NCBI GenBank assembly: GCA_020852555.1
Contig: JADZAQ010000171.1
Coordinates: 1-57,198 of the forward strand
Direction of reading: 5' to 3'
DNA from: Burkholderiales bacterium
GTDB lineage: Bacteria > Pseudomonadota > Gammaproteobacteria > Burkholderiales > Casimicrobiaceae
Length of the DNA stretch: 57,198 bases
How positions within the stretch are numbered: position 1 is the first letter of the stretch; each line of letters begins with the position of its first letter. A program made the position numbers and the translations under genes. This document shows, piece after piece, positions 7,887 through 54,366 of this stretch. Below the pieces are notes generated by a model. The model was not told the DNA's origin. It saw only the letters and a program-made list of their open reading frames with translations, and searched no databases.

Positions 7887-7904
7887 CAGGAGGATCGAGC
7901 GGTC

Positions 7905-40018: not shown

Positions 40019-40753
40019 TCACCCCCGCTGCGGATCGCGCGAACGGGCGGCGCGCCGGCGCACGCGCAGGTTGAGCATCTCCACCGCCACCGAGAACGCC
40101 ATCGCGAAATAGATGTACCCCTTGGGCACCGCGGTGTCGAAGCCCTCGGCGATGAGCGCGACGCCCACCACGACGAGGAACGAGAGCGCGAGCATCTTGA
40201 TCGTCGGGTGCCCCGATACGAAGCGGCCGATCGCGCCGGCGAATGCCATCATGAGCGCCACCGAGGCGATGACCGCGGCCACCATCACCGGGAGCTCGTT
40301 GACCATCCCCACCGCGGTGATGATCGAATCGAGCGAAAAGACGAGGTCGATGACGATCACCTGCAGGATCACCGTCATGAACGTCGCCTTGACCTTGCTC
40401 GACGCATGCCCTGCGTCGCCTTCCATGAGGTGATGGATCTCCATCGTGCTCTTCCACAACAGGAAGACGCCGCCGGCGATGAGGATCAGGTCGCGCCCCG
40501 AGATCTCCTGTCCAAGCGCGGTGAACAGCGGTGCGGTGAGCCCGATCAGCCACGACAGCAGGAACAGCAGCCCGACCCGCATGAACATCGCGAGGAAGAG
40601 CCCGAGCCGTCGCGCGACGTCCCGCCGCTCCGGTGGCAGCTTGTCGACCAGGATCGCGATGAAGATGACGTTGTCGATGCCGAGGACGAGCTCGAGCGCG
40701 GTCAGCATGCCGAAGGCGATCCACGCCTCCGGGCTGGTCAGGAGTTCGATCAT
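40019..40753 (-). CDS. TerC family integral membrane protein
   Basis: A 244-residue protein with about seven membrane segments and the TerC signature: ELVLGIDNVIFIAILVDKLPPERRDVARRLGL near the N-terminus and IDLVFSLDSIITAVGM in the middle. The acidic residues in the membrane (GIDN, SLDS) bind metal; relatives such as Alx/MntP-like proteins export manganese or help load metal in exported proteins. It is 24 bases after the lpxO gene on the same strand, so it may be the last gene of the fatty-acid operon, though no functional link is obvious. Confidence 0.9.
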   Translation of the reverse strand: MIELLTSPEAWIAFGMLTALELVLGIDNVIFIAILVDKLPPERRDVARRLGLFLAMFMRVGLLFLLSWLIGLTAPLFTALGQEISGRDLILIAGGVFLLWKSTMEIHHLMEGDAGHASSKVKATFMTVILQVIVIDLVFSLDSIITAVGMVNELPVMVAAVIASVALMMAFAGAIGRFVSGHPTIKMLALSFLVVVGVALIAEGFDTAVPKGYIYFAMAFSVAVEMLNLRVRRRAARSRDPQRG

Positions 40754-40777
40754 GACGCGGCCCTCGTCGCTCGTGGG

Positions 40778-41725
40778 TCAGCGGACGAAGAAGACGAAGA
40801 CCACGAAGGCGATCAACAGCGCGAACTTGGCCGCGTAGTAGACGTACTTGTTCCAGCGCTTCACCGCCTTGGCCGGCAGGCGCACGTAGTAGATCCAGGA
40901 GAAGATGCGGTTCAGCACGCCGACCTTGTCGCCGGGCACGTTCTCGGCCTGCGTCGCGCGCACCACGGTGCGCTCGATCCAGTGATTGAAGCGCGCGAGC
41001 AGGCGGCTGCGCAGCGGCCGCTCGACGTCGCAGAAGAGGATGAGGCGGTCGGTGTCGGTGCGGTTCTCCGCCCAGTGGATGAAGGTCTCGTCGAAGAGCA
41101 CGCCCTCGCCGTCACGGTACCAGTACGGCAGCCCATCGACGATGATGCGGCAGCGCTCGCTGTTGGGGGTGGCGAGTCCCAGGTGGTAGCGCAGCGATCC
41201 GGCGAAGGGATCGCGGTGCCGGCCGAGATCGCCCCCGGCCGGCAGCATGGCGAACATCGCACCGTTGACGTTGGGAATCGACTGCACGAGGGCGACGGTC
41301 TTGGGGCACAGCGCGCGCGCCGATTCGAGCGGCGTGTCGTACCACTTCAAGTAGAAGCGCTTCCAGCCGCGGCGGAAGAACGAATTGAAGCCAAGGTCGG
41401 TGTAGCCCGTGGCGGCGCGGATGTGGCCCTCGTCGAAGAGCCTCAGCGCCTCGTCGCGAATCGTCTGCCAGTTCTGCTGCAGCGGCGCGATTTCCGGGAA
41501 TTGGGCGAGGTCCAGGAAGGGCTTGTTGGGAACCGCGGAGAATCCGTACATGAGCGCGTTGTACGGCGCCACGATCGTCGAGTGATCGGTGAGCTGCTTG
41601 ACGAAGCGGTGCCGCTCGCGGCCTCGCCAATGGATGAAGAGCGCCCACAGGACGTAACCGTAGACGATGCTCGCCTTCCACGACAGGAGCGAAGCGGCGA
41701 CGGTGGTGGTGATCGACGGGTCCAT
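40778..41725 (-). CDS. lpxO: Lipid A 2-hydroxylase LpxO (aspartyl/asparaginyl beta-hydroxylase family)
   Basis: A 315-residue Fe(II)/2-oxoglutarate dioxygenase. Hydrophobic segments at both ends anchor it to the membrane. The core has PNKPFLDLAQFPEIAPLQQNWQTIRDEA, GFNSFFRRGWKRFYLKWY, the first iron ligands in GRHRDPFAGSLRYHLGL and the second His in DETFIHWAENRTD, all characteristic of LpxO. LpxO adds a 2-hydroxyl group to a secondary acyl chain of lipid A. It starts 11 bases after the AcpS-LpxL fusion gene, which ties hydroxylation to the acyl chain added by that fusion. This operon context is the main clue to the pathway's product. Confidence 0.9.
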   Translation of the reverse strand: MDPSITTTVAASLLSWKASIVYGYVLWALFIHWRGRERHRFVKQLTDHSTIVAPYNALMYGFSAVPNKPFLDLAQFPEIAPLQQNWQTIRDEALRLFDEGHIRAATGYTDLGFNSFFRRGWKRFYLKWYDTPLESARALCPKTVALVQSIPNVNGAMFAMLPAGGDLGRHRDPFAGSLRYHLGLATPNSERCRIIVDGLPYWYRDGEGVLFDETFIHWAENRTDTDRLILFCDVERPLRSRLLARFNHWIERTVVRATQAENVPGDKVGVLNRIFSWIYYVRLPAKAVKRWNKYVYYAAKFALLIAFVVFVFFVR

Positions 41726-41736
41726 GCGGTCTCGGG

Positions 41737-43032
41737 TCAGGCGGTCGTGGTGGGCGAGGCGCGCCCGCGCGTCCGTGGCGCGACGTGCTTCCAGCGGCGA
41801 TGTACCCAGTACCATTGCTCGGGTCGGCGCAGCACGAAACGCTCGAGGGCGGCGTTGTAGGCGCGCGTGGTGAGCCGGATCGCCTCGCCCGTCTTCGCGT
41901 GCTCCACGACCGGGATCGGCGGCTCGAAGCGCAGCACGTGCGTGCCGTCGGGCTCGCGCCAGCTCGTCGCCGGCACCACCGGCGCCCCGGTGGCGAGCGC
42001 GATGATGGCGAGGCTCTTGAAGGTCCACGCCGGAGCGCCGAAGAACTCGACGGCGATGCCGTCGGGGGGACTCGCGTGCTGGTCGAAGGCGAAGACGATG
42101 GCGTCGCCGTTGGCGAGCGCGGCGAGCATGGCGTCGAGCGAGCCGCGCTTCTTGAACACGCCGAAGCCCGCCCGCCGGAAGCGGCGGGTGACGAGGCGAT
42201 CGAACCAGTCGGGCTTCACCGCCCGGCGCACGAAGTGGAAGCGCCCGCGCATGTGCGGAAAGCTGCCGATGCCGGCCACGGTGGCCACCTCCCAGTTGCC
42301 GAAGTGCCCGGTGAGGAGGAGCACGCCCTTCCCCTGGTGATAGGCGGCGGCGAAGGCATCGACGTTCTCGACGCGCACGAGGGCGAGTTTCTGCGCCGCG
42401 CTGAGCCAGCGAAAGCGCAGGAACTCGCTGGCGAGCCGCCACAGGTGTCCGTAGTGCGCCTGGGCGAGGCGCTCGATCGCTGCCGCGTCGAGCGTCGCGC
42501 CGTAGACGCGGCGCAGGTTGTCGAGGATCACTCGCCGGCGCAACGGAACGAGACGATAGAGCAGGCGCCCGGCGAGCGGGACGTCGAGCACCGCGGGTTG
42601 CGCCACCGCCACCGCCTGCGCACCCTCGCGGTCGTGCGTCATCGACAATGCGATGGGCCCCAGCCGATACCGGCCGACGAGCGCCTCGGCGCGTGGACCC
42701 GGCACCACCAGCGGCGCGCCGAAGTTGTCCCGCCGCACCGAGAAATCGGCGGGCTCGATCTGCGCGAGCGCCGCCTCGCGGGGAAAGAGCTTGACGCAGG
42801 CCTCCTTGGCCGCGAAGCGGGCGGCGAGGCTCGCGGCACGCCCGGGACCGTCGCCGGCGTCGGCGAGCTCCTGATCGGTGAAGAAGCGCAGCAAACCGGC
42901 GTGATCGTTCTCGCGCAGCAGGCGCTCGATGCGCGCGATCCGTACCGAGTCGATCCCGCAGCGGCGCGCAGGATCGGGGAGGTGCGCCGCCGCGCCGGCG
43001 ACGGAATCGAGGGCGGCAACCGGCTCGCCCAT
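41737..43032 (-). CDS. Fusion: 4'-phosphopantetheinyl transferase (AcpS) plus LpxL-type lysophospholipid/lipid A acyltransferase
   Basis: A 431-residue two-domain protein. Residues 25-145 are AcpS: CGIDSVRIARIERLL, ARFAAKEACVKLF and LSMTHDREGAQAVAV, which contain the Mg and CoA ligands. Residues 150-418 are an LpxL/HtrB-type acyltransferase with the HxxxxE site His243-Glu248 (TGHFGNWEVA), FAFDQHASP and PVVPATSWREPDG. One chain would both activate the operon's acyl carrier protein and transfer the finished acyl group to a membrane lipid. The linker is continuous in frame, with no sign of assembly error. Genes before and after are seven and 11 bases away. Confidence 0.9.
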   Translation of the reverse strand: MGEPVAALDSVAGAAAHLPDPARRCGIDSVRIARIERLLRENDHAGLLRFFTDQELADAGDGPGRAASLAARFAAKEACVKLFPREAALAQIEPADFSVRRDNFGAPLVVPGPRAEALVGRYRLGPIALSMTHDREGAQAVAVAQPAVLDVPLAGRLLYRLVPLRRRVILDNLRRVYGATLDAAAIERLAQAHYGHLWRLASEFLRFRWLSAAQKLALVRVENVDAFAAAYHQGKGVLLLTGHFGNWEVATVAGIGSFPHMRGRFHFVRRAVKPDWFDRLVTRRFRRAGFGVFKKRGSLDAMLAALANGDAIVFAFDQHASPPDGIAVEFFGAPAWTFKSLAIIALATGAPVVPATSWREPDGTHVLRFEPPIPVVEHAKTGEAIRLTTRAYNAALERFVLRRPEQWYWVHRRWKHVAPRTRGRASPTTTA

Positions 43033-43039
43033 CGTGAAC

Positions 43040-44308
43040 TCACCTGCCTCGCACGAGGAGCGCCGCGTTGGTGCTCGCAAAGCCGCGGCAGAGCACGAGC
43101 GCCACGTTGCTGCGCGGTACCTGCGGCGACGCCGATACCGCGAGGCCGGCACACGCGGGATCGAGCGTGCGCAGCGTCGCGATCCCCGGCACCACCTGCG
43201 CGCGCAGCGCGGCGAGCGCGACCACCGTCTCGACGATGCCGGCGGCGGCGATCAGATGCCCAAAGGCCCATTTGAACCCGGTGACGGGGGGCATGTCGGC
43301 ACCGAAGATGCGGCGCAGTGCGGCGGCTTCCGAGGCGTCGGAGGCCGGGGTGCCGTTGCCGTGCGCGACGATCATCCCGACGTCGCGGGGCGCGAGACCG
43401 GCATCGGCGAGCGCCTCGTCGATGGCGCGCGCCGAACCGTCGCCGTCCTCGCGAATCGCGAGCAGTCCCTGCGCCTCGGTCGCATGGCCGCCGCCCAGCA
43501 CCTCACCCAGCACCGCCGCGCCGCGCTCCCGCGCCGATGCCTCGGTTTCAAGCACGAGCGCGCCGGCACCTTCCCCGAATACGCTGCCGTCGCGATCGGC
43601 GTCGAACGGCCGCAGCGCGTCGGATGCGAGTAGGCCCACGTCGTGGTAGTAGAGCACCATCTGCGGCTCGATCGGCGTCTCGTGCCCCACCGCCACCATG
43701 CGCAGGGCCTCGCCATCGCGCAGGGCGGCGAGCGACTCGATGACGGCGAGCAGTCCACCCACGCTGTGGCTCGTGATGCACGCATTGGTGCCCTTGAGGC
43801 CGTACTTGATCCCGATGTGCCCGAGCACGTTGTTGGGCAGCGTGCGCAGGAGCCACATCGGATTGACGACATCGGCGAGGTCGCGCCCGAAGGCCCGCAA
43901 GTCGCCGCCAGCCTGCGTCATCAGCGGAAAATAGTCGTACTGGTTCTCGAAGTTGCCGCCGCCGGAGCCGACGATCACCCCGCTTCGATCGCTGTAGTCG
44001 GCCGCCGCTGCCGGCGGCAACGCGTCGCGATGGGCGACGAGCCCCGACTGCGCGAGCGCGCGCCCCGCGGCGTACAGACCGACGAGATCGGTGCGGCGGA
44101 TGAGCTTGTGGAGCTTGCGGTCGTCGACCATCGTCCGCGCATTGAATTCGGGGATCTCGCCGGCGATTTGCGTCGGCCAGTGCGTGGGATCCCATTGCGT
44201 GATCCGCCGCAGCGACGAGGCGCCCGAGCGCACCGCCGCGAGAATGTCCGCGGGCTCGAGCCCCGCCGCACAGACGGCACCGCTGCCGGTGATCACCACG
44301 CGCGTCAT
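43040..44308 (-). CDS. Beta-ketoacyl-ACP synthase, FabF type (first of two)
   Basis: A 422-residue thiolase-fold condensing enzyme with an intact Cys-His-His set: Cys177 (GTNACITSHS), His316 (VAHGNGTPASD) and His351 (FKWAFGHLIAAAG), plus Lys346. The nucleophile loop is one residue shorter than in FabF and the sequence is divergent, as in the KS partners of AcpXL, aryl polyene and similar clusters. Its ATG overlaps the stop of the second synthase by four bases, so the two are likely made in equal amounts and may form a heterodimer. Substrate chain length is not readable. Confidence 0.88.
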   Translation of the reverse strand: MTRVVITGSGAVCAAGLEPADILAAVRSGASSLRRITQWDPTHWPTQIAGEIPEFNARTMVDDRKLHKLIRRTDLVGLYAAGRALAQSGLVAHRDALPPAAAADYSDRSGVIVGSGGGNFENQYDYFPLMTQAGGDLRAFGRDLADVVNPMWLLRTLPNNVLGHIGIKYGLKGTNACITSHSVGGLLAVIESLAALRDGEALRMVAVGHETPIEPQMVLYYHDVGLLASDALRPFDADRDGSVFGEGAGALVLETEASARERGAAVLGEVLGGGHATEAQGLLAIREDGDGSARAIDEALADAGLAPRDVGMIVAHGNGTPASDASEAAALRRIFGADMPPVTGFKWAFGHLIAAAGIVETVVALAALRAQVVPGIATLRTLDPACAGLAVSASPQVPRSNVALVLCRGFASTNAALLVRGR

Positions 44309-45633
44309 GGCGTCGTGTCCCCGCCGCGGCCGCCCGGGCGGCCGTCGACTTCCTCGGGGTGGCGCAGCACGAGGCAACTGTTGGAGCCCCCGAAACCAAA
44401 CGAATTCGACAGCGCCGCGCGAATCCGGGCGCGGCGTGGCGCGGTGACGAGCGCGAGGTCGCAGTCGGCGTCGCGCTCGGCCAGGTTCGCGTTGACCGGC
44501 AGTTCACCGCGCGCGATGGCGAGCGCACATACCGCAGCTTCGACCGCGCCGGCCGCGGCGATGAGGTGGCCCATCGTGCTCTTCGTCGAGCTCACCGGGA
44601 CGCTGCGTCCGCGTGCGCCGAAGACGGCGTGCAGCGCCGCCGTCTCGCTGCGATCGTTCATGAGCGTCGACGTGCCGTGCGCATTGACGTAATCGATGTC
44701 GTCGGTCGTCGCGCCGGCATCGGCGAGCGCCGCACGCATCGCCTGGATCGGGCCGTCGCCGTCGGGCGGCGAGTCGGTGATGCGATACGACGACAGCGAA
44801 TTGCCGTCACCGGCGAGCTCGGCGTAGATGCGCGCGCCCCGAGCGCGCGCCGCTTCCCACTCCTCGAGCACGACGAAGCCCGCCCCTTCGCCGAGGAGGA
44901 AGCCGTTGCGCGTCGCATCGAACGGACGGCTCGCGCGCTCCGGCGTGTCGTTGTCGGTGGACAGCGCCGAGAGCAGGCAAAAACCGCTGATGCCGACGGG
45001 GCTGATCATCGAATCGAAGCCGCCGGCGAGCACCCGGTCGGCGCGGCCGCGGCGGATCAGCTTGAGCGCGGTGCCCAGCGCCTGGCCGCCGGAGGCGCAG
45101 GCAGTGTGCACCGAGGTGGCGTAGCCCTCGATGCCGTGGCGGCGGGTGAGGAGCGCGAGACCCTGCGCGGCCTGGCCGCGGCAGAAGACGAGCGGATCGT
45201 TGGCGGCAGCGTCGGTGAGGAGGCGGTCGGCATCGAGCGCGCCGGCCGCCGCCGCGTGCGCATGCGTGCTCTCGAGATCGACGAAATCGGCGGTCATCAT
45301 GCCGGCGCCGACCGCGCAGCCCCAGCGCGGCGCGTCGCCCGGCGTGGGCCGGATGCCCGCATCGATGAACGCCTGCTCGGCGGCCTCCAGCGCGAAGCGA
45401 TGTGAACGGTTGGTGAGCTTCAGCAGCCGGCGCTCGGTGATGAGCGTGTTGCGAAAATCCTTGACCTCGGCGGCGATGCGCGTGGCAAACCCCGACGCGT
45501 CGAAGAGCGTGATCGGCGCGCCGCCGCTCGCCCCGGCGAGGAGCGCGCGCCAGGTCGTGGCGGCGTCGTTGCCGACCGGCGTGACGAGGCCGATGCCGGT
45601 GATCGCGGCCCGGCGGCGTGCCAGCCGCGTCAC
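44305..45633 (-). CDS. Beta-ketoacyl-ACP synthase, FabF type (second)
   Basis: A 442-residue condensing enzyme closer to canonical FabF: Cys179 (HTACASGGQALG), His319 (VNAHGTSTLMND), Lys351 and His356 (SSTKSTMGHLIAAAGAVEA), and the terminal NSFGFGGSNSCLVL. All residues needed for decarboxylative condensation are present, so it is a working synthase and not a chain-length factor. It overlaps the hotdog gene and the first synthase by four bases each. The pair parallels FabF1XL and FabF2XL of rhizobial lipid A very-long-chain clusters. Confidence 0.9.
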   Translation of the reverse strand: MTRLARRRAAITGIGLVTPVGNDAATTWRALLAGASGGAPITLFDASGFATRIAAEVKDFRNTLITERRLLKLTNRSHRFALEAAEQAFIDAGIRPTPGDAPRWGCAVGAGMMTADFVDLESTHAHAAAAGALDADRLLTDAAANDPLVFCRGQAAQGLALLTRRHGIEGYATSVHTACASGGQALGTALKLIRRGRADRVLAGGFDSMISPVGISGFCLLSALSTDNDTPERASRPFDATRNGFLLGEGAGFVVLEEWEAARARGARIYAELAGDGNSLSSYRITDSPPDGDGPIQAMRAALADAGATTDDIDYVNAHGTSTLMNDRSETAALHAVFGARGRSVPVSSTKSTMGHLIAAAGAVEAAVCALAIARGELPVNANLAERDADCDLALVTAPRRARIRAALSNSFGFGGSNSCLVLRHPEEVDGRPGGRGGDTTP

Positions 45634-46487
45634 GGCGCGCGCCCCTGCCCCGGCAGCGCCGGACCGACGACGACGCGGGCGGTGGCCACGGCGCGTCCCA
45701 AGGCTTCGGCCGTCAGCATGAACGTGGCCTCGTCGCCCGCCACGTCACGCAACTGCGCCGACAGCTGCAGCGTGCTGCCGGGCGGCGTGAAGGCGCGTAC
45801 CTTGACGTGCGTCATCCGTCGTGGCGCGAGCGCGACCGCGGCGCCCCACGGTCCGGACGCCCGCGCGAGACGCAACGCGACTGCGAGCAGCGCGTCGAGC
45901 AGCAGCGTTGCCGGGAACACCGGCCGGCGCGGAAAGTGATCCTCGAAGAACGCTGCCGCCCGCGGGACCGCGAGCAGCGCGCAGGCGACGCCGGGAGCGG
46001 TTGCCGGGACCGCGACCGGCGCCGCGACGTCGATGCCCCGGAAGCGCCCCGAAGGGGCACCGCTGCCGGTGAGCGTCGCCAACCAGGCGCGCAGCGCCAC
46101 CGGGTCGTCGAACTCGGCAAGCGGCAGCATCGGCCCCAGGCAATCGATGAGCTCGATCGCCCGCTCGCCGGCGATGTCGGCGTGCCCGTGATAGGCGACC
46201 GCCTCGTCGTCGCAGCTCTCGATCTCGACCGCGAGCGTCAGCGTATCGCCGGGGGCTGCGCCGCGCCGGAAGCGCGTCTGACTGGCGAGTGCGGCCACCG
46301 GGCGGCCCCGAAAGTCGATCGCGGCCATCGCCACCCACGCCGCGAGCTGGCCGACCGCCTCGGCGATGAGGCACGACGGGAAGGCGGCGACCTGCGCCGG
46401 AATCGCGAACGTCGCCCGGGCCCGCGTGGCGGGCTCGAAAACGTCGATGCGGTCGACGAACGAGAAGGCGGCGAAGTGGTGTGACAT
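45630..46487 (-). CDS. Double-hotdog 3-hydroxyacyl-ACP dehydratase-like protein
   Basis: A 285-residue protein of two FabZ-like hotdog domains (about 1-125 and 160-280). FabZ uses His and Glu 14 residues apart in HFPGxPVxPGxxxxE, contributed by different subunits. The second half has the histidine (His184 in DHFPRRPVFPATLLLDAL) with Asp198 at the Glu position. The first half has Ile29 at the His position but keeps Glu43 (FPSCLIAEAVGQLAAW). One composite active site of His184 with Glu43 is therefore likely. It would dehydrate the 3-hydroxyacyl intermediate of the operon's elongation cycle. Confidence 0.8.
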   Translation of the reverse strand: MSHHFAAFSFVDRIDVFEPATRARATFAIPAQVAAFPSCLIAEAVGQLAAWVAMAAIDFRGRPVAALASQTRFRRGAAPGDTLTLAVEIESCDDEAVAYHGHADIAGERAIELIDCLGPMLPLAEFDDPVALRAWLATLTGSGAPSGRFRGIDVAAPVAVPATAPGVACALLAVPRAAAFFEDHFPRRPVFPATLLLDALLAVALRLARASGPWGAAVALAPRRMTHVKVRAFTPPGSTLQLSAQLRDVAGDEATFMLTAEALGRAVATARVVVGPALPGQGRAP

Positions 46488-46532
46488 CCGGAACGCAGCC
46501 CGTGACGATGCCGCGGAACGAGGATGGTCCGA

Positions 46533-46958
46533 TCAGCTCGCCGCGGCTGCTTCGCGCTGCGCCTGCACGACGAGCTTGCAGAACGTCTCGGGGGTAAAGA
46601 GCCGCGGAATGTCGGCGACCTTGAGCGGCATCTTGAAACGCTCGGCGGGCACTTCCGCGAGATACGCCTTCAATTGCGTCATGCCGACGTCGGTGACGAT
46701 GCCCTTCTGCTCGAACTCCGCCTCGGAGAGCGCGCCGCGCGCATTCTCGACGATCTTGCCGCGCGGGATCTTCACCTTGAAGGCACGCTCGAGACGAAAC
46801 ACCATGTCGAGGAAGTCGATCGACTCGGCGTTGAGGTCGGCGATCAGCGAAGCGCTGGGTTTCACCTCCTCGATGTCGACGCCGAGCGCGTCGGCGATGG
46901 TCTCCGCCACGGTGGGGTACACCGCGTCGATGTCAGCCTGCGTGATGGGTGTAGCCAT
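46533..46958 (-). CDS. Acyl carrier protein, AcpXL-like, with extended C-terminus
   Basis: A 141-residue carrier protein. The phosphopantetheine site is Ser46 in DLNAESIDFLDMVFRLERAF, followed by KVKIPRGKIVENARGALSEAEFEQKG. That order closely follows rhizobial AcpXL (DSLDFLDIVF, IKIP, then an inserted loop), which carries the very-long acyl chain for lipid A; aryl-polyene carrier proteins are also similar. AcpXL is about 90-95 residues, so the last 40 residues here (FKMPLKVADIPRLFTPETFCKLV) are an extra segment. It sits nine bases after fabG and 45 before the dehydratase. Confidence 0.88.
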   Translation of the reverse strand: MATPITQADIDAVYPTVAETIADALGVDIEEVKPSASLIADLNAESIDFLDMVFRLERAFKVKIPRGKIVENARGALSEAEFEQKGIVTDVGMTQLKAYLAEVPAERFKMPLKVADIPRLFTPETFCKLVVQAQREAAAAS

Positions 46959-46967
46959 GCTTCCCTC

Positions 46968-47738
46968 TCATTCCATTTTGAATCCGCCATCGACGGTGAG
47001 GACCTGCCCCGTGATGTAGCTCGAAAGATCGGAGGCGAGGAACCACACCGCGTTGGCGACCTCGGCGGCGGTGCCGAAGCGCCTCATCAGGATCCGCGCC
47101 TTGACTTCGTCGCCGGCGAGCTCGCGCACCGCCTGCGACATCTCGGTGTCGATGACGCCCGGCGCCACCGCGTTCACCGCGATCTTGCGCGGCGCGAGTT
47201 CCACGGCGAGCGCACGGGTGAACGCGTTGACCGCGCCCTTGCTCGCCGCATAGTTCGTCTGTCCGCGCCCGCCCTTCTCGGCGGACACCGACGAGATGTT
47301 GACGATGCGTCCGCGTCGCCGCGAGATCATGTACGGCACCACCGCGCGCGTCACGTTGAAGACGCCGGTCACGTTGGTGGCGAGCACCTCGGCGACGTCC
47401 TCGTCGGAGAAGCCGGCAAGCGGATTGTCGCGGATGAGGCCCGCGTTGTTCACCAGCACGTCGATGCGCTCGGTGCGCTCGACGAGCTGCTCCACCGCCT
47501 GCGCACACGCCGCCATGTCGCGCACGTCGACCTGGACGGCCGCCACCGCGTGCCCCTTGGCCGCCTCGGCGGCGACCAGCGCCTGCGCCGCCTCGTGCTG
47601 GCCGCGATAGAAGAAAGTGACCTGCGCACCGTCGGCGGCAAGGACCTCGACGATCGCCCGCCCGATGCCGCGGCTGCCGCCGGTGACCAGCGCGACCTTG
47701 CCCTCGAGCCCCGAAGCGATCGCCGTTGCCACGCTCAC
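46968..47738 (-). CDS. fabG: 3-oxoacyl-ACP reductase, FabG type
   Basis: A 256-residue SDR with VTGGSRGIGRA (cofactor), NNAGLIRDNPLAG, Ser in NISSVSAEKGGRGQ, catalytic YAASKGAV, NAVAPGVIDTEM and the C-terminal GQVLTVDGGF, all standard for FabG. It reduces the 3-ketoacyl-ACP made by the paired synthases. I chose the GTG start, which overlaps the stop of the enoyl-reductase-like gene by four bases. It is a second, cluster-specific copy, presumably separate from housekeeping fabG. Confidence 0.92.
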   Translation of the reverse strand: MSVATAIASGLEGKVALVTGGSRGIGRAIVEVLAADGAQVTFFYRGQHEAAQALVAAEAAKGHAVAAVQVDVRDMAACAQAVEQLVERTERIDVLVNNAGLIRDNPLAGFSDEDVAEVLATNVTGVFNVTRAVVPYMISRRRGRIVNISSVSAEKGGRGQTNYAASKGAVNAFTRALAVELAPRKIAVNAVAPGVIDTEMSQAVRELAGDEVKARILMRRFGTAAEVANAVWFLASDLSSYITGQVLTVDGGFKME

Positions 47739-48508
47739 CCCGAGATCGCGAACCCGCCGTCGACGACAAGCGTGTGACCGTTGATCATCGAAGCCTCGGG
47801 CAGGCACAGCAGGTACACCGCGCCGGCGACGTCGTCCGGCGTCAGCACCGGCCCCGCCGGCGCGCGCGCGGCGAAGTTGGCGAGCAATTCATCGCGATTG
47901 GGGAAATACGTCAGCGCATCGGTATCGACCACGCCCGCGCTCACCACGTTGACGCGAACCCCGCGCGGCCCCAGCTCCTGCGCGAGGCTGCGGGCGAGCG
48001 CCTCGAGCGCTGCCTTCGACGCACCTACGAAACCGTACCCCGGCAGCGCCCGCTGCGCACCGAGGCTCGACAGCGCGACGATCCGGCCGCCGTCGCGCAT
48101 CCGCGGCACCGCGCGCTGCGCGAGGAGATTGAGCGCCAGCGCATTGGTCTCCATGCACCATCGCCAGTGCTTGAGCGTCATCTCCATCGCGGGCTTCAGG
48201 ACGCCGCTCGCCGCGTTGGATACGACGAGATCGACGTGGTCGAACTCGCGGTCGATCGCCGTGAACAGCTCGTCGACGCTGTCGGGTACGCCGACACTCG
48301 CCTGCACGGCGATCGCGCGCCGGCCAAGGCCGCGGATCTCGGCGCACAGCGCCGCCGCCGGCTCGGCGCTGTTGTAATAGTTGACGACGACATCGCAACC
48401 GGCCGCCGCGAGCTTGCGCGCCACCGCACGACCGATGCCACGCGCCGCGCCGGTGACGAGCGCGACCTTGCCGGCCAGTGCCAACGGGTCCGCCCCTGCT
48501 CGCGTCAT
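47735..48508 (-). CDS. SDR of the FabL type, probable enoyl-ACP reductase
   Basis: A 257-residue SDR closely resembling Bacillus FabL: SNAASGVLKPAMEMTLKHWRWCMETNALAL, SSLGAQRALPGYGFVGASKAALEAL and SAGVVDTDALTYFPNRDELL correspond segment by segment with FabL (NNAASGVLRPVMEL, SSLG, VGVSKAALEAL, IDTDALKHFPNRE). FabL is an NADPH enoyl-ACP reductase. If so, the operon makes saturated chains, unlike aryl polyene clusters, which lack this step. Carbonyl reductase activity is the alternative. The coupled start with fabG supports a shared pathway. Confidence 0.82.
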   Translation of the reverse strand: MTRAGADPLALAGKVALVTGAARGIGRAVARKLAAAGCDVVVNYYNSAEPAAALCAEIRGLGRRAIAVQASVGVPDSVDELFTAIDREFDHVDLVVSNAASGVLKPAMEMTLKHWRWCMETNALALNLLAQRAVPRMRDGGRIVALSSLGAQRALPGYGFVGASKAALEALARSLAQELGPRGVRVNVVSAGVVDTDALTYFPNRDELLANFAARAPAGPVLTPDDVAGAVYLLCLPEASMINGHTLVVDGGFAISG

Positions 48509-48618
48509 CGTTCCTGCTCGCTCCAACTCGAACACCCCCACACTGCGCGCCCCGCGGGCCGCGGCGCGAACCACGGCCGCGGAACGCCATCGCCGGCCCG
48601 GGCCGCGACGAAAAGCCG

Positions 48619-49743
48619 CTATTCTAGCGTGCCGATCCGCGGCGCTCCGCCGGCACGCGGTGCATGGAGCTGGCGCTGCGCCTCGATCACCCAGAATTTC
48701 TTCACGGCGTACCAGACGTCGGCCAGCCACAGCAGGTTCGGCCCGGCGTCGGGTGGAGGCGGAGTCGCGGTCCCCGGAGCGTAGGCGTCGATCCACCCCC
48801 GCTCGGCCGCGCGGCCGGGGATCTCGGCGGCGAGCGGCAGGAAGATGTGGTTGTTGGCCGCGGACAGCGTGACGTTGCGCACGTGCGCGCGGCCGGTGGC
48901 GGCGAAATCGCGGTCACGCTCGTTTCCCGGGAACGTCCAGGCGACGAGGTCGATGGCGATCCAGTATCCGGTGAACTCCTCGACGGTATCCGGAATGTCG
49001 CGGAGCTTGCCGAGCAAGCTCCACTGGTTCGGCAAGAAGAACCCCGCCCCGCCGGCGCTCAGCGCCGACGCATAGCCGATGCGCAAGCCCACGACCGGCT
49101 GTGCCTCGCCCGTCCGCGAATCGACGATCGCCACCCGATCCTCGGGACGATCGGTCAGCGGATTCCACACCGGCACCTCGGCGCCGTACTCGCCGGCGAG
49201 GACGTGCAGGATCTTCACCACCTGCATGCCGCCCTGGCTGTGCCCGATGAGCAGCGGCGCCATCGCGTCCTTCTCGACGTACCAGGCAACCATCCCCGCG
49301 AGACGGCTCGCATCCTCGTAGGGACTGTACGACCACGCGCCGTCACCGGGCTGGCGGATGCGCGCTTCCGGATAGCCCATGCCGACCAGAAATTCGCCGA
49401 ACGACTGCATCACGAGATGGACGGGATAGACGCCGCCGTGCAGCAGCATGATGCGCGGCGCGGGTCCTTGCGCCAGCAGTCGGACGTCGGCGGGCGTGAC
49501 GCGCCGGGGGTCGAGGGCGAGGATCCGCTCGGCGAGCGCCGGCGCCGCCACGCGGCGCTCCACGGCGGCGCCTTCGCCGGGCTGCCGCCACGGAGCGGCG
49601 CAGGCGACCAGCGCGAGGCACAGTGCCACGACCGCGGCGCCAGGCCGGCGTTCCCGCGTTTCGGCCGGTGGCCCAGGCTCGCGCGCCGGCGGCGCGACGC
49701 CCCCCGACGGGCGCTGGGCTCCGAACCGGTTGCCCGGATTCAT
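48619..49743 (-). CDS. Alpha/beta hydrolase lipoprotein
   Basis: A 374-residue protein. The signal GAAVVALCLALVAC ends in a lipobox-like LVAC, so it is probably lipidated after export, though the N-terminal leader before it is long and hydrophilic. The hydrolase core has MLLHGG and the nucleophile elbow LIGHSQGGMQVVK. A lipase or thioesterase on envelope lipids would fit the operon. It overlaps the condensing acyltransferase-like gene upstream by four bases and is 110 bases ahead of the FabL-type gene. I do not recognise a named subfamily. Confidence 0.78.
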   Translation of the reverse strand: MNPGNRFGAQRPSGGVAPPAREPGPPAETRERRPGAAVVALCLALVACAAPWRQPGEGAAVERRVAAPALAERILALDPRRVTPADVRLLAQGPAPRIMLLHGGVYPVHLVMQSFGEFLVGMGYPEARIRQPGDGAWSYSPYEDASRLAGMVAWYVEKDAMAPLLIGHSQGGMQVVKILHVLAGEYGAEVPVWNPLTDRPEDRVAIVDSRTGEAQPVVGLRIGYASALSAGGAGFFLPNQWSLLGKLRDIPDTVEEFTGYWIAIDLVAWTFPGNERDRDFAATGRAHVRNVTLSAANNHIFLPLAAEIPGRAAERGWIDAYAPGTATPPPPDAGPNLLWLADVWYAVKKFWVIEAQRQLHAPRAGGAPRIGTLE

Positions 49744-51044
49744 GCCACGACGAGCGCGCGAGCGCTGGCCTGCATCGCCCCCGTGATGCGAGCGACGTCG
49801 TGGTGCGTGAAGGCGCTCGGCCGCCACGACACGCCGATGTGCAAGCACTCCCCCACCGATGCCGGCGCCAGCACCAGCGGCGAGAACGGGCCCGTGGAGA
49901 TACCACGCAGGTAATGCAGGACCGGCGCCGCGCCGACGCCGGCTCGCCACATCGCCTCGACGTTGAGGGCCGAGATGCCGCCCCATACGGGATAGGCCTT
50001 GGCGTACACCCGCTCGCGCTGCGCCAGCGTCATGAAGCGCCAGGCGAGCCCGACGCCGCCCAGGAGGCAGAGCGTCTGCAGATAGAGCTTGCGCCGCTTC
50101 ATCCGCTGCGTCTGCGCGTGGACGTCGCGTGCCAGCGCCTCCAACGTGACCCCCGGGGGGGCGAGATGCGATACGAAGAACGAACTCAGGAACTGGCCGA
50201 ATACCTCATGGGGCCCGCCTTCGAGTTCGCCGCGCAGGTTGACGACCGAGGCGATGCCGATCTCGCGACGGCGCGGCGCCGCCAGCCGGCCCGGAGCCTC
50301 GGCGGCGAGCGCGCCGATGAGCATCGCGAGCAGGAGATCGTTGAGCGTCACCCCCCACCGCCGGGCGGCGTGGCGTACCGCGGCGTACGTCTCGGCCGCG
50401 AACTCGATCGAGGTGAAGGCGTTGTGCTTGCCTTCGCCATGCGGATAGCGCGGGCGCACCAGGCGCCGCGAGCGCAGCAGCATCGACGGCAGGAAGTACA
50501 GGCCGACGTAGAACGCGAGCGGGTGACGAAGGAACAGCCGCGCATAGGCGCGCGGGTAGAGCGCGGGGGCCGGCCCGTCGCGGGGGAAAGTGCCGTCGTA
50601 GCGGGCCGCGATCGCTTGCAGCAGCGCCACCATCGAATCGCCACCGGCGATGACATGATCGTAGGCGATGCCGAGGTGGAACGAGTCACCGTTGCGCACC
50701 GCGAAGAAGCGCAAGGGCTCGAAGGTCGACTCCCCCACCGCTGCCGCGAACGGCTCGTTGAGTTGGCGCTCGATCTCGCGGACGAGCAGCCCCGGCGCGT
50801 CGCCCTGCGCTTCGTGGATCGGCAACGCGACGCGCATCGCCCCGCCCGCGTATTCGTAGCGCCGGCGCCGGGCATCGAGCGCGAGGCGCGTGATGCCCGC
50901 CGCGGCGAGGTGCGTCTCGATCGCTGCCTCGAGCCGCGGGACATCGAGGGCGCCCGGGAGTTCGGCCACGTGCACCGCGTTGTATGGATACAGGCCCCGC
51001 CAACGCAGCATGGCCGCCTGGAAGAGGTTGAACCGGCCCTTCAT
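49740..51044 (-). CDS. Condensation/WS-DGAT-like CoA- or ACP-dependent acyltransferase
   Basis: A 434-residue protein of the BAHD/condensation-domain superfamily: FNLFQAAMLRWRGLYPYNAVHVAEL at the N-terminus, the active-site segment AYDHVIAGGDSMVALLQAI (HxxxxGD, a variant of HHxxxDG), TLNDLLLAMLIGAL, and NLRGELEGGPHEVFGQFLSSFFV, as in wax-ester synthase/diacylglycerol acyltransferase relatives. It would join an acyl group to an alcohol or amine. The pairing with a hydrolase by a four-base overlap suggests transfer and trimming of one lipid product. Substrates are unknown. Confidence 0.75.
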   Translation of the reverse strand: MKGRFNLFQAAMLRWRGLYPYNAVHVAELPGALDVPRLEAAIETHLAAAGITRLALDARRRRYEYAGGAMRVALPIHEAQGDAPGLLVREIERQLNEPFAAAVGESTFEPLRFFAVRNGDSFHLGIAYDHVIAGGDSMVALLQAIAARYDGTFPRDGPAPALYPRAYARLFLRHPLAFYVGLYFLPSMLLRSRRLVRPRYPHGEGKHNAFTSIEFAAETYAAVRHAARRWGVTLNDLLLAMLIGALAAEAPGRLAAPRRREIGIASVVNLRGELEGGPHEVFGQFLSSFFVSHLAPPGVTLEALARDVHAQTQRMKRRKLYLQTLCLLGGVGLAWRFMTLAQRERVYAKAYPVWGGISALNVEAMWRAGVGAAPVLHYLRGISTGPFSPLVLAPASVGECLHIGVSWRPSAFTHHDVARITGAMQASARALVVA

Positions 51045-51172
51045 CGCATACCTGTCTTCACCCGCGACGAGCGGACGACAACGGGCACGCAGGCGAAACG
51101 GAACGGATGCGACACGACGGCGGCAACGGAAAGCGGCGCGACTCTCGCGATGGAGAGCGTGGATTATCGCAG

Positions 51173-51829
51173 CTACCCGGAGCGGCCGTCGGCGTCGCGC
51201 GAACGGGGCAGGAAGCGGCCGGTGCGGCGCACGTAGGCCGCGTAGCTCGTACCGTGCTTGACGAGCAGGTGGCGCTCCTCGTTGTGCGCCTTGATCACCA
51301 TCAGGACGATGTGCGCCGCGCCGACGGCGACCATGGGACCGGTGGGTACCACGACCATGGTAGCGACCATGAGCAGGATCGACAGCGCGTAGATGGGGTG
51401 CCGGACGCGCGCGAACATGCCGTCGGTAATGAGCGCCTGCTCGTCGTCGGTCACCGCCATGCGCCAGTGCGGGCCCATGCGCGCCCAGGACTTGACCGTC
51501 AGCACGAGACAGGCGATGGCGACGACCGTCGCCGCGTAGCGCAGCGCCGCGTACGCGGGGACGAGAGTGAACGCCGGCAACCCGAACGGTGGCCCCGTCC
51601 GCGACAGCGCGAGCCAGGGCAACGTCACCCAGGCCGCGACCAGCGGCACCCACACGAGCCCCAGCACCCGCTCGAGCGGTTGGCGTGGCAGCACGTCGGC
51701 CGCGCGCGCCGTGTGCTTGCGCGATTGTCGGCGGACCCGAACGATCATCGCGCCGACCCCGAACCAATAGGCGGCAACGGTGACCGCGACGAGAATTCCC
51801 GGGATGTCCATGATGTGGCGAGTCGCCAT
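51173..51829 (-). CDS. Isoprenylcysteine carboxyl methyltransferase (ICMT/PEMT-like) family membrane protein
   Basis: A 218-residue protein with about five membrane segments and the family signature GMFARVRHPIYALSILLM followed by KAHNEERHLLVKHGTSYAAYVRRTGRFLP. Bacterial members methylate unknown small molecules or lipids with S-adenosylmethionine. It is the first gene before the acyltransferase-like gene (128-base gap), so it may open the fatty-acid operon or be a separate unit. Start could be either the first or the seventh codon. It is divergent from the DUF1631 gene. Confidence 0.8.
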   Translation of the reverse strand: MATRHIMDIPGILVAVTVAAYWFGVGAMIVRVRRQSRKHTARAADVLPRQPLERVLGLVWVPLVAAWVTLPWLALSRTGPPFGLPAFTLVPAYAALRYAATVVAIACLVLTVKSWARMGPHWRMAVTDDEQALITDGMFARVRHPIYALSILLMVATMVVVPTGPMVAVGAAHIVLMVIKAHNEERHLLVKHGTSYAAYVRRTGRFLPRSRDADGRSG

Positions 51830-51984
51830 TGTACGAGTTGGCTCGCCGCAGATTCGATCACCTTGCGCGCCGCGCCAGGCTGGCCGAGGCGACCTCGGCC
51901 GTCCTCCCGTCGCCGACCGGCGGCGGACCTCGAGCCGACCGCCGTTGGGTCGGCATCCGGCTCGACGAAGTAGAATCCTCTCCC

Positions 51985-54366
51985 ATGTCCGGGCCTACCT
52001 ACGGCGTACGCGCGTCCGCAGCGGATGCTCCCCAAGCGCTCTCCCCCGCCGCCCTCGAAGAAGGGCGTGCGCTGCTGCGCGCGTGTTTCGCCCAGTACCG
52101 GCTGCGTCTGCTCGAGGTCATCCGCGGCTCGCTCGCCGAGATGGACGATCTGTTCGAGAGCGGCAGCCACATTCCGGACGGCGAGGTCGAGCTCTTTCGC
52201 AAGCAGCAGCCGGCCTGGCTCGACCAGTTCGACCGCACGCTGTGCGAACTCTTCGAGCGGCGCGTCGTCGACGGAGCGCGACGCAGGGGCCGCCGACCCG
52301 ACGCCGACGCGTCGCTCGCGACGCTGCGCGTCCTCACCGCCTTCGATCACGACCGGCAGGCCGCACTCAAGGACGCGACCCGCTTCCTCGATCGGTTCAC
52401 GCAACGGGAAATCGCGGCGCTCGACCTGCGCGTCGAGACGCTCCTGGGCGAGCGCGTAAGGGACGCGGACAACCCGTTCGCCGTATCGTACGTTCTCGAC
52501 GCGGTCGGCGCGTCGGCGCGCAAGATCTATCCCAATCCGCGGGTGTGGCGGCCGTTCATGGAGCGCGTCCTCGGCGACCTCACCCCGGAGATCAACAAGC
52601 TCTACGTCACGCTCAATCGCTTCCTCGCGGATCGCGGCGTGTTGCCGGAGATCAAGGCCGCGCTGCGCGCGCGCAGCCAGTGGCGGCCGCACGACGATGG
52701 CGAGCTCCTGTCGACGTTCGGCAAGATGATCGAGGGCGCCACCCCCGGCCTGCCCCAGGACGTCGTGGTCCCGGAACTCGCGAATCCGCACGCGGCACCG
52801 GCATTCGTGTTCGCCGACAAGGCGCCACCGGTGCGCAGCATCGCGCCGATCACCATCGATTCGGCGCAGGAGATGTCGGCGACGCGGATCCTCGCCGGAT
52901 TGGCGACGCTCGCCAAGGCGATGCCCACGGTGGCGGGCACGCGTGCGGCAGCGGCCAACGGGTCCGCCGCCGAGTCGCCAACGGGCCCCGAAACCGCGGG
53001 TGCTGCGACGGTCGCGGCGGAGCCCGCGGCGGCGCACGCCGAGGGCGCGTTCCCGTCGCTCGATCCGCTGCTCGCGCTGGGCGCGGCCACCCCGCTGTTC
53101 ACCGCTCTCGCCCGCTGGCAGCAACTCGACCTGCCTGCCGCCCTCGCCCGCCTGGCGCCACCCACGGCGCCCGGCGCGACCGAAGGGGTGGTGGTGCCGA
53201 TCAATCTCATCCCGCACCTCCGGGCGGCGATCGGCGATCAGATCGAGTCCGAAACGGACCGCATCACGATGGACGTGATCGCGCTCCTTTTCGACTACAT
53301 CTTCCGCGACCCCTCGATTCCCGACGCGCAGCGCAGCCTCTTCGGGCGGCTGCAGGTGCCGATCGTCAAGGCGGCGCTCCTCGACCGGCAGTTCTTCTCC
53401 GACAAGGCGCATCCCGCGCGCGCGCTCCTCGACAATCTCGCCGAGGGCGCCGTCGGCGCCACCGCCGACGATGCCTACCAGCGCGCCTTCGGAGAACTGG
53501 CGAGCTCGATCGTCGGCGAGATCTGCCAGACCTTCGACATCGACATCGATGTCTTTCGCGCGGCCAACGCGCGACTTGCCGCGTTCATCGATAGCGAGCG
53601 CCAGAAGATCACGCAGGCATCGTCGGTCGACGTCGAGGCCGCGCTGCACGCCGAGGCGAGCGAGGCCGATCGCTCGCAGGTGCGCGCGTTCCTGCGCGAT
53701 CGCCTCGCCGGCACCGAGCTGCCGTTCGAGGTACGCGGCTTCGTCGAAACGGCCTGGGCCGATTACCTCACGCAATTGCGCCGCGATCACGGTCCCGAAG
53801 GCGAGGCAAGTGTGGCGGCGGTAAAGACGCTCGACGACCTCTTGTGGAGCATCGTCGCCAAGGAACGCTCGGCGCAGAAGGCCCGCCTCACCAAGATGAT
53901 TCCGTCGCTCATCGGCGCGCTGCGCAAAGGCGCCGCGGCGGTGGGGACGCCACCCGAGCGCAGCCGCGCCTTCCTGGAGGCGCTCTACGAGCTGCACATC
54001 GCGGCGATCAAGACGGTCAAGGATGCGCCGACCGCCGGTACGCCGTCGACGGCGGCGCCGCTGCCCAAGGTGAGCATGCACGATTACGTGAACGAGATGG
54101 CGGTCGGCACCTGGCTCGCCTTCACCAAGGAGGGACAAGCGGTGAGCGCCCGCCTGACGTGGGTGAGCCCGTTGCGCACCAAGTACCTCTTCACGAGCCG
54201 ATCGCGCGCGCGGGCATTCGTCTACTCGCCCGAGGAACTCGCCTACGAGATCGGCGCCGGACTCGTCGCGCTGGTCGTCGAGCCGGTGCCGCTGTTCGAT
54301 CGCGCGGTCAGCGCGGCGCTCGACTCGCTCGGTATCCGCCAGCCAGCGGCCGGCGCTCCCGCGTAG
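51985..54366 (+). CDS. DUF1631 family protein
   Basis: A 793-residue, mostly helical cytoplasmic protein without membrane segments. Recognisable blocks of DUF1631 include AVSYVLDAVGASARKIYPNPRVWRPFMERVLGDLTPEINKLYVTLNRFLADRGVLPEI and IFRDPSIPDAQRSLFGRLQVPIVKAALLDRQFFSDKAHPARALLDNLAEGAVG. A variable Ala-rich linker lies between them (about 310-365). The C-terminus (GTWLAFTKEGQAVSARLTWVSPLRTKYLFTSRSRARAFVYSPEELA) resembles a PilZ-like beta-barrel, which hints at cyclic di-GMP response. Function unknown. The ATG chosen begins MSGPTYGV; a longer frame overlaps the divergent gene. Confidence 0.85.
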   Translation: MSGPTYGVRASAADAPQALSPAALEEGRALLRACFAQYRLRLLEVIRGSLAEMDDLFESGSHIPDGEVELFRKQQPAWLDQFDRTLCELFERRVVDGARRRGRRPDADASLATLRVLTAFDHDRQAALKDATRFLDRFTQREIAALDLRVETLLGERVRDADNPFAVSYVLDAVGASARKIYPNPRVWRPFMERVLGDLTPEINKLYVTLNRFLADRGVLPEIKAALRARSQWRPHDDGELLSTFGKMIEGATPGLPQDVVVPELANPHAAPAFVFADKAPPVRSIAPITIDSAQEMSATRILAGLATLAKAMPTVAGTRAAAANGSAAESPTGPETAGAATVAAEPAAAHAEGAFPSLDPLLALGAATPLFTALARWQQLDLPAALARLAPPTAPGATEGVVVPINLIPHLRAAIGDQIESETDRITMDVIALLFDYIFRDPSIPDAQRSLFGRLQVPIVKAALLDRQFFSDKAHPARALLDNLAEGAVGATADDAYQRAFGELASSIVGEICQTFDIDIDVFRAANARLAAFIDSERQKITQASSVDVEAALHAEASEADRSQVRAFLRDRLAGTELPFEVRGFVETAWADYLTQLRRDHGPEGEASVAAVKTLDDLLWSIVAKERSAQKARLTKMIPSLIGALRKGAAAVGTPPERSRAFLEALYELHIAAIKTVKDAPTAGTPSTAAPLPKVSMHDYVNEMAVGTWLAFTKEGQAVSARLTWVSPLRTKYLFTSRSRARAFVYSPEELAYEIGAGLVALVVEPVPLFDRAVSAALDSLGIRQPAAGAPA

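Follow-up and report, generated by a model that had tools for sequence, protein, structure and literature searches.

What chain is built by a set of fatty acid synthesis genes that shares an operon with a lipid A-type acyltransferase, and which lipid receives it? The question is raised by positions 40019-51829 of a 57,198-nucleotide stretch of DNA, hereafter the window (Burkholderiales bacterium, Casimicrobiaceae; GCA_020852555.1, contig JADZAQ010000171.1, 1-57,198, forward strand), where ORF coordinates and profile matches place an operon on the minus strand. The ACP, KR, ER, DH, two KS, PPTase, acyltransferase (AT) and LpxO-like genes that a first-pass annotation had listed are all found there, with two amendments: the PPTase and the LpxL-type acyltransferase are a single ORF (41737-43032), and the second KS lacks the catalytic Cys.

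Organization of the operon

The genes, in order of transcription, are as follows.

51173..51829, minus strand: ICMT/PEMT-family methyltransferase, 218 aa, accessory and lineage-limited (Pfam ICMT, 29.5 bits, cut-off 24)
49740..51044, minus strand: Condensation/PapA-like protein, 434 aa, accessory (Pfam Condensation 30.1, cut-off 30.6, and PapA_C 23.3, cut-off 30, both sub-threshold)
48619..49743, minus strand: alpha/beta-hydrolase-like protein, 374 aa, accessory (GHSQGG motif)
47735..48508, minus strand: core enoyl-ACP reductase (ER), FabL type, Y-x6-K, 257 aa (NF005975 FabL, 344.8 bits, above cut-off 328; best PDB sequence match 3oic)
46968..47732, minus strand: core ketoreductase (KR), FabG type, Y-x3-K, GTG start at 47732 or 47738 (PRK12826.1-2 FabG subfamily, 245.7 bits, above cut-off 222; TIGR01830, 267.1 bits, below cut-off 297.75)
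46533..46958, minus strand: core ACP, 141 aa, PP-binding at residues 16-71 and a long C-terminal part (Pfam PP-binding, 36.1 bits)
45630..46487, minus strand: core dehydratase (DH), double hotdog, Glu in the N-terminal half and His in the C-terminal half (Pfam FabA-like, two stretches)
44305..45633, minus strand: core ketosynthase (KS) with Cys, His, Lys and His (PRK07314, 404.2 bits, above cut-off 387; TIGR03150 FabF, 422.8 bits, below cut-off 493.75)
43040..44308, minus strand: core second ketosynthase (KS2), a CLF- or decarboxylase-like protein with Ser in place of the catalytic Cys (residue alignment)
41737..43032, minus strand: core PPTase::AT fusion, 431 aa, AcpS-type PPTase at about 24-146 and LpxL/PatA-type acyltransferase at about 152-418 (Pfam ACPS and Lip_A_acyltrans, above cut-off)
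40778..41725, minus strand: LpxO-like dioxygenase, accessory (NF033391, a match covering almost the full model at 430.5 bits, below cut-off 500)
40019..40753, minus strand: TerC-family membrane protein, neighbor at the operon end (Pfam TerC, 157.2 bits)

The tight spacing already remarked for the core is borne out by the computed junctions, which are 4-base overlaps or short gaps of up to 45 bases. ER and KR overlap by 4 bases (GTG start at 47738) or lie 2 bases apart (GTG start at 47732); gaps of 9 and 45 bases separate KR from ACP and ACP from DH; DH/KS and KS/KS2 each overlap by 4 bases; and no adh gene lies between KS2 and the acyltransferase, the fusion beginning 7 bases after KS2. Outside the core, LpxO follows the fusion after 11 bases and TerC follows LpxO after 24, the condensation and hydrolase genes overlap by 4, and gaps of 110 and 128 bases separate hydrolase from ER and ICMT from condensation.

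Conservation of the core and its neighbors

The seven-gene core (ER-KR-ACP-DH-KS-KS2-PPTase::AT) is a conserved unit with loci in two phyla. It is complete, colinear and on a single strand in 26 of 32 loci, namely 18 of 22 outside the Verrucomicrobia, mostly Burkholderiales, and 8 of 10 verrucomicrobial ones, so its gene order is beyond chance. Five of the six incomplete loci (L021, L023, L029, L030 and L038) are cut at a contig start or end; in the sixth, L151, no ACP match occurs in the 635 bases remaining up to the contig end, where its relative L143 would have the ACP. Residues are kept as well: Y-x6-K of ER and Y-x3-K of KR in all 26 complete loci, the ACP phosphopantetheine serine in 28/28 loci covered, the DH Glu and His each in 30/30 loci covered, and the KS Cys, His, Lys and His in 31/31 rows. 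Site sharing is known from FabZ.

Five neighboring genes were tried and rejected as core genes because they are present near or beside it in only 3-12 of the 26 complete loci (LpxO in 5, TerC in 3, ICMT in 10, hydrolase in 12, condensation in 11); ICMT lies upstream in 9/18 non-verrucomicrobial and 1/8 verrucomicrobial complete loci. LpxO, which the first-pass annotation had made part of the system, is thus not integral to it, though 18 of the family's 26 fusion-bearing genomes have one as against 1 of 11 fusion-less genomes (kinship uncorrected), which favors the lipid A reading; some members of the family have an LpxO-like gene following the fusion. Its absence from the compared stretch of 21/26 complete loci counts against a lipid A reading. 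Further, nine relatives had 20 of their flanking ORFs typed, and no recognized lipid A gene was among them; one of the 20, in L032, is a hexapeptide-repeat protein.

The upstream hydrolase, PapA-like and ICMT genes suggest a different lipid in the window's family. On this account, which we regard as possible but the less probable one, the same synthase would supply a chain to some other lipid of the envelope, whether a phospholipid, an ornithine lipid, a glycolipid or a wax-like ester, and later steps would fall to the PapA-like protein, hydrolases and ICMT. The Condensation/PapA_C and ICMT matches speak for it, as does the position of these three genes upstream of the core in the loci that have them; however, each of the three went unseen in the remaining 14-16 complete loci, though upstream sequence is short in some of these. 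The hydrolase-like protein has no Pfam or NCBIfam match, and its model (pLDDT 69.4) has no Foldseek match at E 0.001, the best being a lipase at E 0.009.

The PPTase-acyltransferase fusion

PPTase and acyltransferase are also joined in a single protein among relatives, with the PPTase Asp kept in 31/31 and Glu in 32/32, and the acyltransferase His and Glu in 31/31, where covered. The predicted structure of the fusion (pLDDT 85.3, pTM 0.81) has two folded halves. The PPTase half has the conserved Asp and Glu and the AcpS fold of an AcpS-type PPTase, and the AT half combines an HX4(D/E) motif with the LpxL/LpxM superfamily fold (Pfam, Foldseek and residue alignment). In Foldseek, the PPTase half resembles AcpS and the AT half resembles PatA (TMt 0.80-0.86) and LpxM (0.67-0.69). 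PatA, the nearest fold, acylates a mannoside lipid; this counts against lipid A and favors another acceptor. We recognized no published PPTase-acyltransferase fusion in literature searches. Two loci on viral contigs gave PPTase-only matches.

Kinship of the AT half points the other way. Its nearest sampled relatives in the AT tree are a tandem acyltransferase pair in Legionella sp. (L037) that adjoins LpxA-, LpxD- and LpxB-family genes, and this argues against a non-lipid A acceptor. That locus (lpxA-lpxD-lpxB) differs from the core in having no PPTase fusion and, within 21.6 kb, SDR genes only, with no KS, ACP or DH match. The cited part of PMC7867332 gives acyl groups of 27-30 carbons for Legionella lipid A. 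In the AT trees L133 and L146 have no AT row, and the APE-region row L132, a long branch, is in one tree and left out of the other.

Two ketosynthases

The KS2 nucleophile Cys is replaced by S, T or G in 22/22 non-verrucomicrobial rows, the window included, and kept in 10/10 verrucomicrobial rows; KS2 His, Lys and His are kept in 32/32 rows. KS and KS2 form their own clades, apart from a small sample of acpXL and PRK09116-type sequences. We built an 89-row KS tree by a quick method only and finished a 49-row tree, in which the core KS clade (support 100/100) is apart from two acpXL KS rows. For the smaller tree, the core was cut down to 12 loci, two KS of genome G000 were included, and three long rows were left out (L147's other acpXL KS, one from Myxococcota and one from Nitrospinota). 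In it, the FabF-like KS of L134 was reassigned to the FabF group after first being counted with APE, and L146 has one KS row only.

Comparison with known systems

The first-pass annotation had equated the order of the operon's genes with that of the rhizobial acpXL cluster, given as six genes (acpXL-fabZXL-fabF2XL-fabF1XL-adh-lpxXL) for A. fabrum in the cited part of PMC11901934. The likeness in domain order holds: in both, an ACP of the cluster's own is followed by a dehydratase, two KS and finally an LpxL-family acyltransferase. It is a likeness of order: the six published genes include no KR, ER or PPTase, adh is missing here, and the KS and AT rows sampled do not group with the core. Membership in the acpXL family was rejected, with the ACP scoring 42.8 bits against a cut-off of 83 for NF005079 (PRK06508), which we take to be the AcpXL marker, and with the core KS grouping apart from two acpXL KS rows and the AT apart from a single LpxXL row. 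AcpXL matches above cut-off number 0/13 in the order and 2/58 in the class of genome G074, those two being the acpXL comparison loci. A betaproteobacterial acpXL-lpxXL copy for very-long-chain lipid A is therefore very improbable.

Still less probable is an aryl-polyene-like pigment cluster. As described in the cited part of PMC8253772, the E. coli cluster (apeA-R), which serves an outer-membrane product, resembles the core in having KS pairs, ACP, DH, KR and a lysophospholipid acyltransferase; unlike the core, its gene list there has no enoyl reductase and no PPTase of its own, and includes two ACPs and RND export and Lol-like genes. We rejected membership: the FabL-type ER is in 26/26 complete loci, the core KS is separate from PRK09116-bearing loci (four rows, two genomes), and PRK09116, presumably the APE marker, gave no match in G000 at 1e-100. 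Of the protein-by-protein comparison with acpXL and aryl polyene clusters for which the first-pass annotation had called, the KS and AT trees place the core KS outside the sampled rows of both and the AT apart from the LpxXL row.

Unfused larger FAS clusters (L058, L064, L068, L074 and L077, titled Syntrophobacteraceae, Nitrospinota and Deltaproteobacteria) overlap with the core in content, L074 and L077 having ER, a long ACP, KS, a KS-like gene, KR, AcpS, hotdog genes and an LpxL-type AT. They differ in extra KS genes, in PPTase and AT lying apart, in hotdogs as separate genes and in identities of 26-54% (tblastn); literature searches turned up no published name for them. Fungal type I FAS with a PPT domain (2wat and others, Foldseek) likewise has its own AcpS-like domain but is a multidomain type I synthase whose PPTase is unlinked to a lipid acyltransferase. 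Comparison with ladderane clusters was of little help: the cited part of PMC2649909 describes radical SAM genes there, and none was seen here.

Proposed function

We consider it somewhat better than an even bet that the seven core genes encode a fully reducing type II fatty acid synthase dedicated to one saturated chain of an envelope lipid, with lipid A the likeliest acceptor. This reading builds on observed gene content, order, fusion, conserved residues and separate clades, and the self-contained synthase proposed at first pass is supported, with a PPTase, ER and KR of its own and a lipid A-type acyltransferase. A spare general synthase supplying ordinary lipids, as the FabF-, FabG- and FabL-like parts might imply, is quite improbable given that the PPTase is always fused to an HX4E acyltransferase and that KS2 is distinct; the core is additional to a FabF above cut-off, two more LpxL-type genes and three more PPTase-family matches in G000.

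The acceptor, chain length, each catalytic step and the KS-KS2 pairing we infer as follows. The PPTase half would load phosphopantetheine onto the operon's long ACP, and malonyl groups would come from housekeeping enzymes, because FabD and FabH are both missing from the core. Chain extension would fall to the Cys-bearing KS, paired with KS2. KSQ and CLF chemistry is the basis for the roles of a Cys-less KS2, which may act as a chain-length factor and/or a malonyl-ACP decarboxylase producing the starter; the verrucomicrobial KS2 retains its Cys, so a single KS2 mechanism may not apply to all. KR, the double-hotdog DH and the FabL-type ER would fully reduce every unit, and the AT half would move the chain from ACP onto an inner-membrane lipid, most likely at an acyl-oxyacyl position of lipid A. 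In loci with LpxO behind the core, the chain may also be 2-hydroxylated. Lipid A is a plausible acceptor, judged from AT kinship and from LpxB in 38/39 fusion genomes, a weak test since most such bacteria make lipopolysaccharide.

As a bolder and rather doubtful proposal, the core could be a compact, transferable plug-in, exchanged between betaproteobacteria and Verrucomicrobia, in which a private synthase adds a new, probably very long saturated chain to lipid A, with activation and transfer in one protein and a KS2 that is Cys-bearing or Cys-less by lineage.

Significance

To our knowledge, dedicated outer-membrane chain-building systems come from few lineages. The core places one candidate in uncultured Burkholderiales-type bacteria and Verrucomicrobia, with the activation and transfer enzymes as one protein, and the lineage-bound loss of the KS2 Cys offers a natural experiment on chain-length factors. 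Because the core is compact and can be moved whole into another strain, its product is directly testable. If lipid A is indeed modified, these bacteria would probably carry an undescribed kind of lipopolysaccharide.

A conserved fatty acid synthase with a PPTase–acyltransferase fusion

The minus-strand operon at 40019–51829 is a real, conserved and dedicated fatty acid synthase with a fused PPTase and acyltransferase. The window is the whole of contig C171 of its genome (G000; 3.83 Mb in 282 contigs), and every gene that the first-pass annotation named is present on the minus strand where that annotation placed it. The PPTase and acyltransferase, listed there as separate genes, are both present but form one ORF of 431 aa (41737–43032) that matches Pfam ACPS and Lip_A_acyltrans. 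Structure prediction gives this fusion two confident halves (pLDDT 85.3, pTM 0.81); Foldseek matches the first to AcpS and the fungal FAS PPT domain and the second to PatA (TMt 0.80–0.86) and LpxM (0.67, 0.69). Judged by aligned length, no single match among the 50 listed covers the two halves together. Both annotated ketosynthases are likewise found, but the second (KS2) lacks the nucleophile cysteine, which had been overlooked.

Two genes outside the core are recorded here. A hydrolase-like family member with a GHSQGG motif (48619–49743) has no Pfam or NCBIfam match, and several relatives carry a second copy beyond the condensation gene. A DUF1631 protein (51829–54366, 362.6 bits) is divergent from the operon and adjoins it in G009, a genome of the same family, too.

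At E 1e-100 or better, 26 of 37 Casimicrobiaceae genomes (G000–G036, the window's own family) carry the fusion, with imperfect copies split over contigs (G008, G020), partial (G034, G035) or bearing one internal stop (G007). The fusion was also found in 1 of 24 other genomes of the order (G046) and in 24 of 189 genomes of the order of the verrucomicrobial genome G064, several with internal stops. Phylum-level scans, scoring at most four candidates per genome, recovered only the window itself (1 of 398) and G064 itself (1 of 387); outside the window's family and the order of G064, the fusion is rare. Titles of fusion-bearing records include Burkholderiales, Verrucomicrobia, Limisphaerales and one Candidatus Methylomirabilis; MAG titles can mislead, and we took Bordetella parapertussis titles as wrong.

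The comparison covered 32 loci, made up of the window, 17 from a genome contig scan and 14 further genome stretches. Ten form a verrucomicrobial group, four assigned by record title and six by sharing an order with one of those four. The self-contained synthase of the first-pass annotation is supported: ER-KR-ACP-DH-KS-KS2-fusion is complete, colinear and on one strand in 26 loci (18/22 non-verrucomicrobial, 8/10 verrucomicrobial). Among the six incomplete loci, L021, L023, L029, L030 and L038 are cut by a contig start or end; for L029, the KS query landed on KS2, which caused the locus to be scored as not colinear. L151 has DH to fusion present, but the 635 bases remaining ahead of its contig end (12736–13371) gave no ACP match; in its relative L143 the ACP match lies 202 bases past DH.

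LpxO does belong to the operon in the window but is not a core member, lying downstream in only 5 of the 26 complete loci. TerC is downstream in 3, and ICMT (10), condensation (11) and hydrolase (12) genes lie upstream; these accessory counts are lower bounds because some loci include little flank. The 20 flanking ORFs typed are mostly unrelated between genomes, ranging over aldehyde dehydrogenase, sulfatase, chloride channel, QueC, Hcp and other products. Three of the 20, including a hydrolase-like homologue, were without a match. In a Limisphaerales MAG (L026, 2890–4337), two Hcp-family (type VI secretion) genes stand directly upstream of the core.

Catalytic residues

Counting rows where the site is covered, the PPTase half keeps Asp (31/31) and Glu (32/32), the acyltransferase half His and Glu (31/31), ACP its Ser (28/28), ER Y-x6-K and KR Y-x3-K (26/26 each), and KS its Cys, His, Lys and His (31/31). 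DH retains the Glu of the N-hotdog and the His of the C-hotdog (30/30 each). Because the Glu position of the C-hotdog is replaced in 29 of 30 rows (D 18, N 9, Q 1, Y 1), DH probably has one composite active site; FabZ dimers share active sites in such a manner. KS2 keeps His, Lys and His in 32/32, and its Cys position holds S (15), T (6) or G (1) in all 22 non-verrucomicrobial rows and C in all ten verrucomicrobial rows. A ketosynthase with Cys alone replaced is expected to be a malonyl-ACP decarboxylase or chain-length factor.

Ketosynthase phylogeny and related systems

In a finished 49-row tree, core KS (12 rows; 100/100) and core KS2 (12 rows; 100/99) each form a clade, as do all 31 KS and all 32 KS2 rows in an 89-row quick tree (100 each). 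The likeness to the rhizobial acpXL cluster drawn in the first-pass annotation does not extend to ketosynthase kinship: the two acpXL ketosynthases sampled join three from larger, unfused FAS clusters (96/94) rather than the core. Aryl polyene kinship fares no better, as four ketosynthases from loci bearing PRK09116, our proxy for such clusters, are placed away from core KS in the 49-row tree, and FabF also falls elsewhere. Seven Cys-less ketosynthases of unfused clusters share one side of the tree with core KS2 (99/98; root arbitrary). Verrucomicrobial KS nest within betaproteobacterial KS (98/81, 99/95), which hints at transfer between phyla; the same nesting was not seen for KS2 in this tree (89/93 versus 88/92, unstarred).

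L074 and L077 (titled Syntrophobacteraceae and Nitrospinota) carry separate ORFs for ER, ACP, KS, KS-like, KS, KR, AcpS, hotdogs, KS and an LpxL-type acyltransferase, identified partly by tblastn and partly by Pfam. L058, L064 and L068 hold parts of a larger unfused cluster (several KS genes, AcpS, LpxL-type acyltransferase). One KS class of unfused clusters has Ser for Cys (5/5). These clusters may have a compacted relative in the window's core, with hotdogs and PPTase–acyltransferase fused.

Published systems were compared from partial texts: acpXL (PMC11901934), ladderanes (PMC2649909) and aryl polyenes (PMC8253772). The sections consulted of the last describe ApeD as a lysophospholipid acyltransferase and the cluster as lacking a PPTase, and consider lipid A or a derivative as a possible anchor. 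A literature search largely without subscription journals listed no paper recognizable as describing this operon or fusion.

Genome context and the acyl acceptor

Elsewhere, G000 has one FabF over the cut-off, two more LpxL-type genes on C199 and three further PPTase-family matches; at least one other PPTase-family match occurs in 21/21 fusion genomes examined. On C199 (L145), a PPTase-family ORF (8802–9104) sits between LpxL-type acyltransferases (7790–8614, 9593–10417), an arrangement that coordinates also indicate in G006 C38 and G009 C68, with a PPTase adjoining an acyltransferase in G005 C22 and G014 C1. On C159 (4494–13644), very long ORFs of 2297 and 1465 aa (L158, L159) match KS and the PPTase family and resemble a type I PUFA or polyketide synthase.

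LpxB is present in 38 of 39 fusion genomes (exception G264). Within the family, LpxO (E 1e-100 or better) occurs in 18/26 fusion-bearing versus 1/11 fusion-less genomes, uncorrected for kinship; 12 of the 18 genomes having both place the two genes no more than 1.2 kb apart.

In a 38-row acyltransferase tree, the 11 core rows group as a clade (95/97) whose sister (100/100) is a tandem pair of acyltransferases from Legionella sp. PATHC038; a 61-row quick tree retains the union (100; core alone 90). Sampling is biased because most non-core rows derive from the core-seeded scan. This tandem pair, the nearest sampled kin (L037, 6804–12768), adjoins LpxA-, LpxD- and LpxB-family genes. Legionella lipid A, according to the portion of PMC7867332 consulted, contains long acids of 27–30 carbons, 27-oxo-octacosanoic acid among them; no enzyme attaching them was found in the literature consulted.

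The first-pass annotation proposed that the product is a secondary chain of lipid A or a related lipid. The chain is probably destined for the envelope, with lipid A as the leading, though unproven, candidate acceptor.
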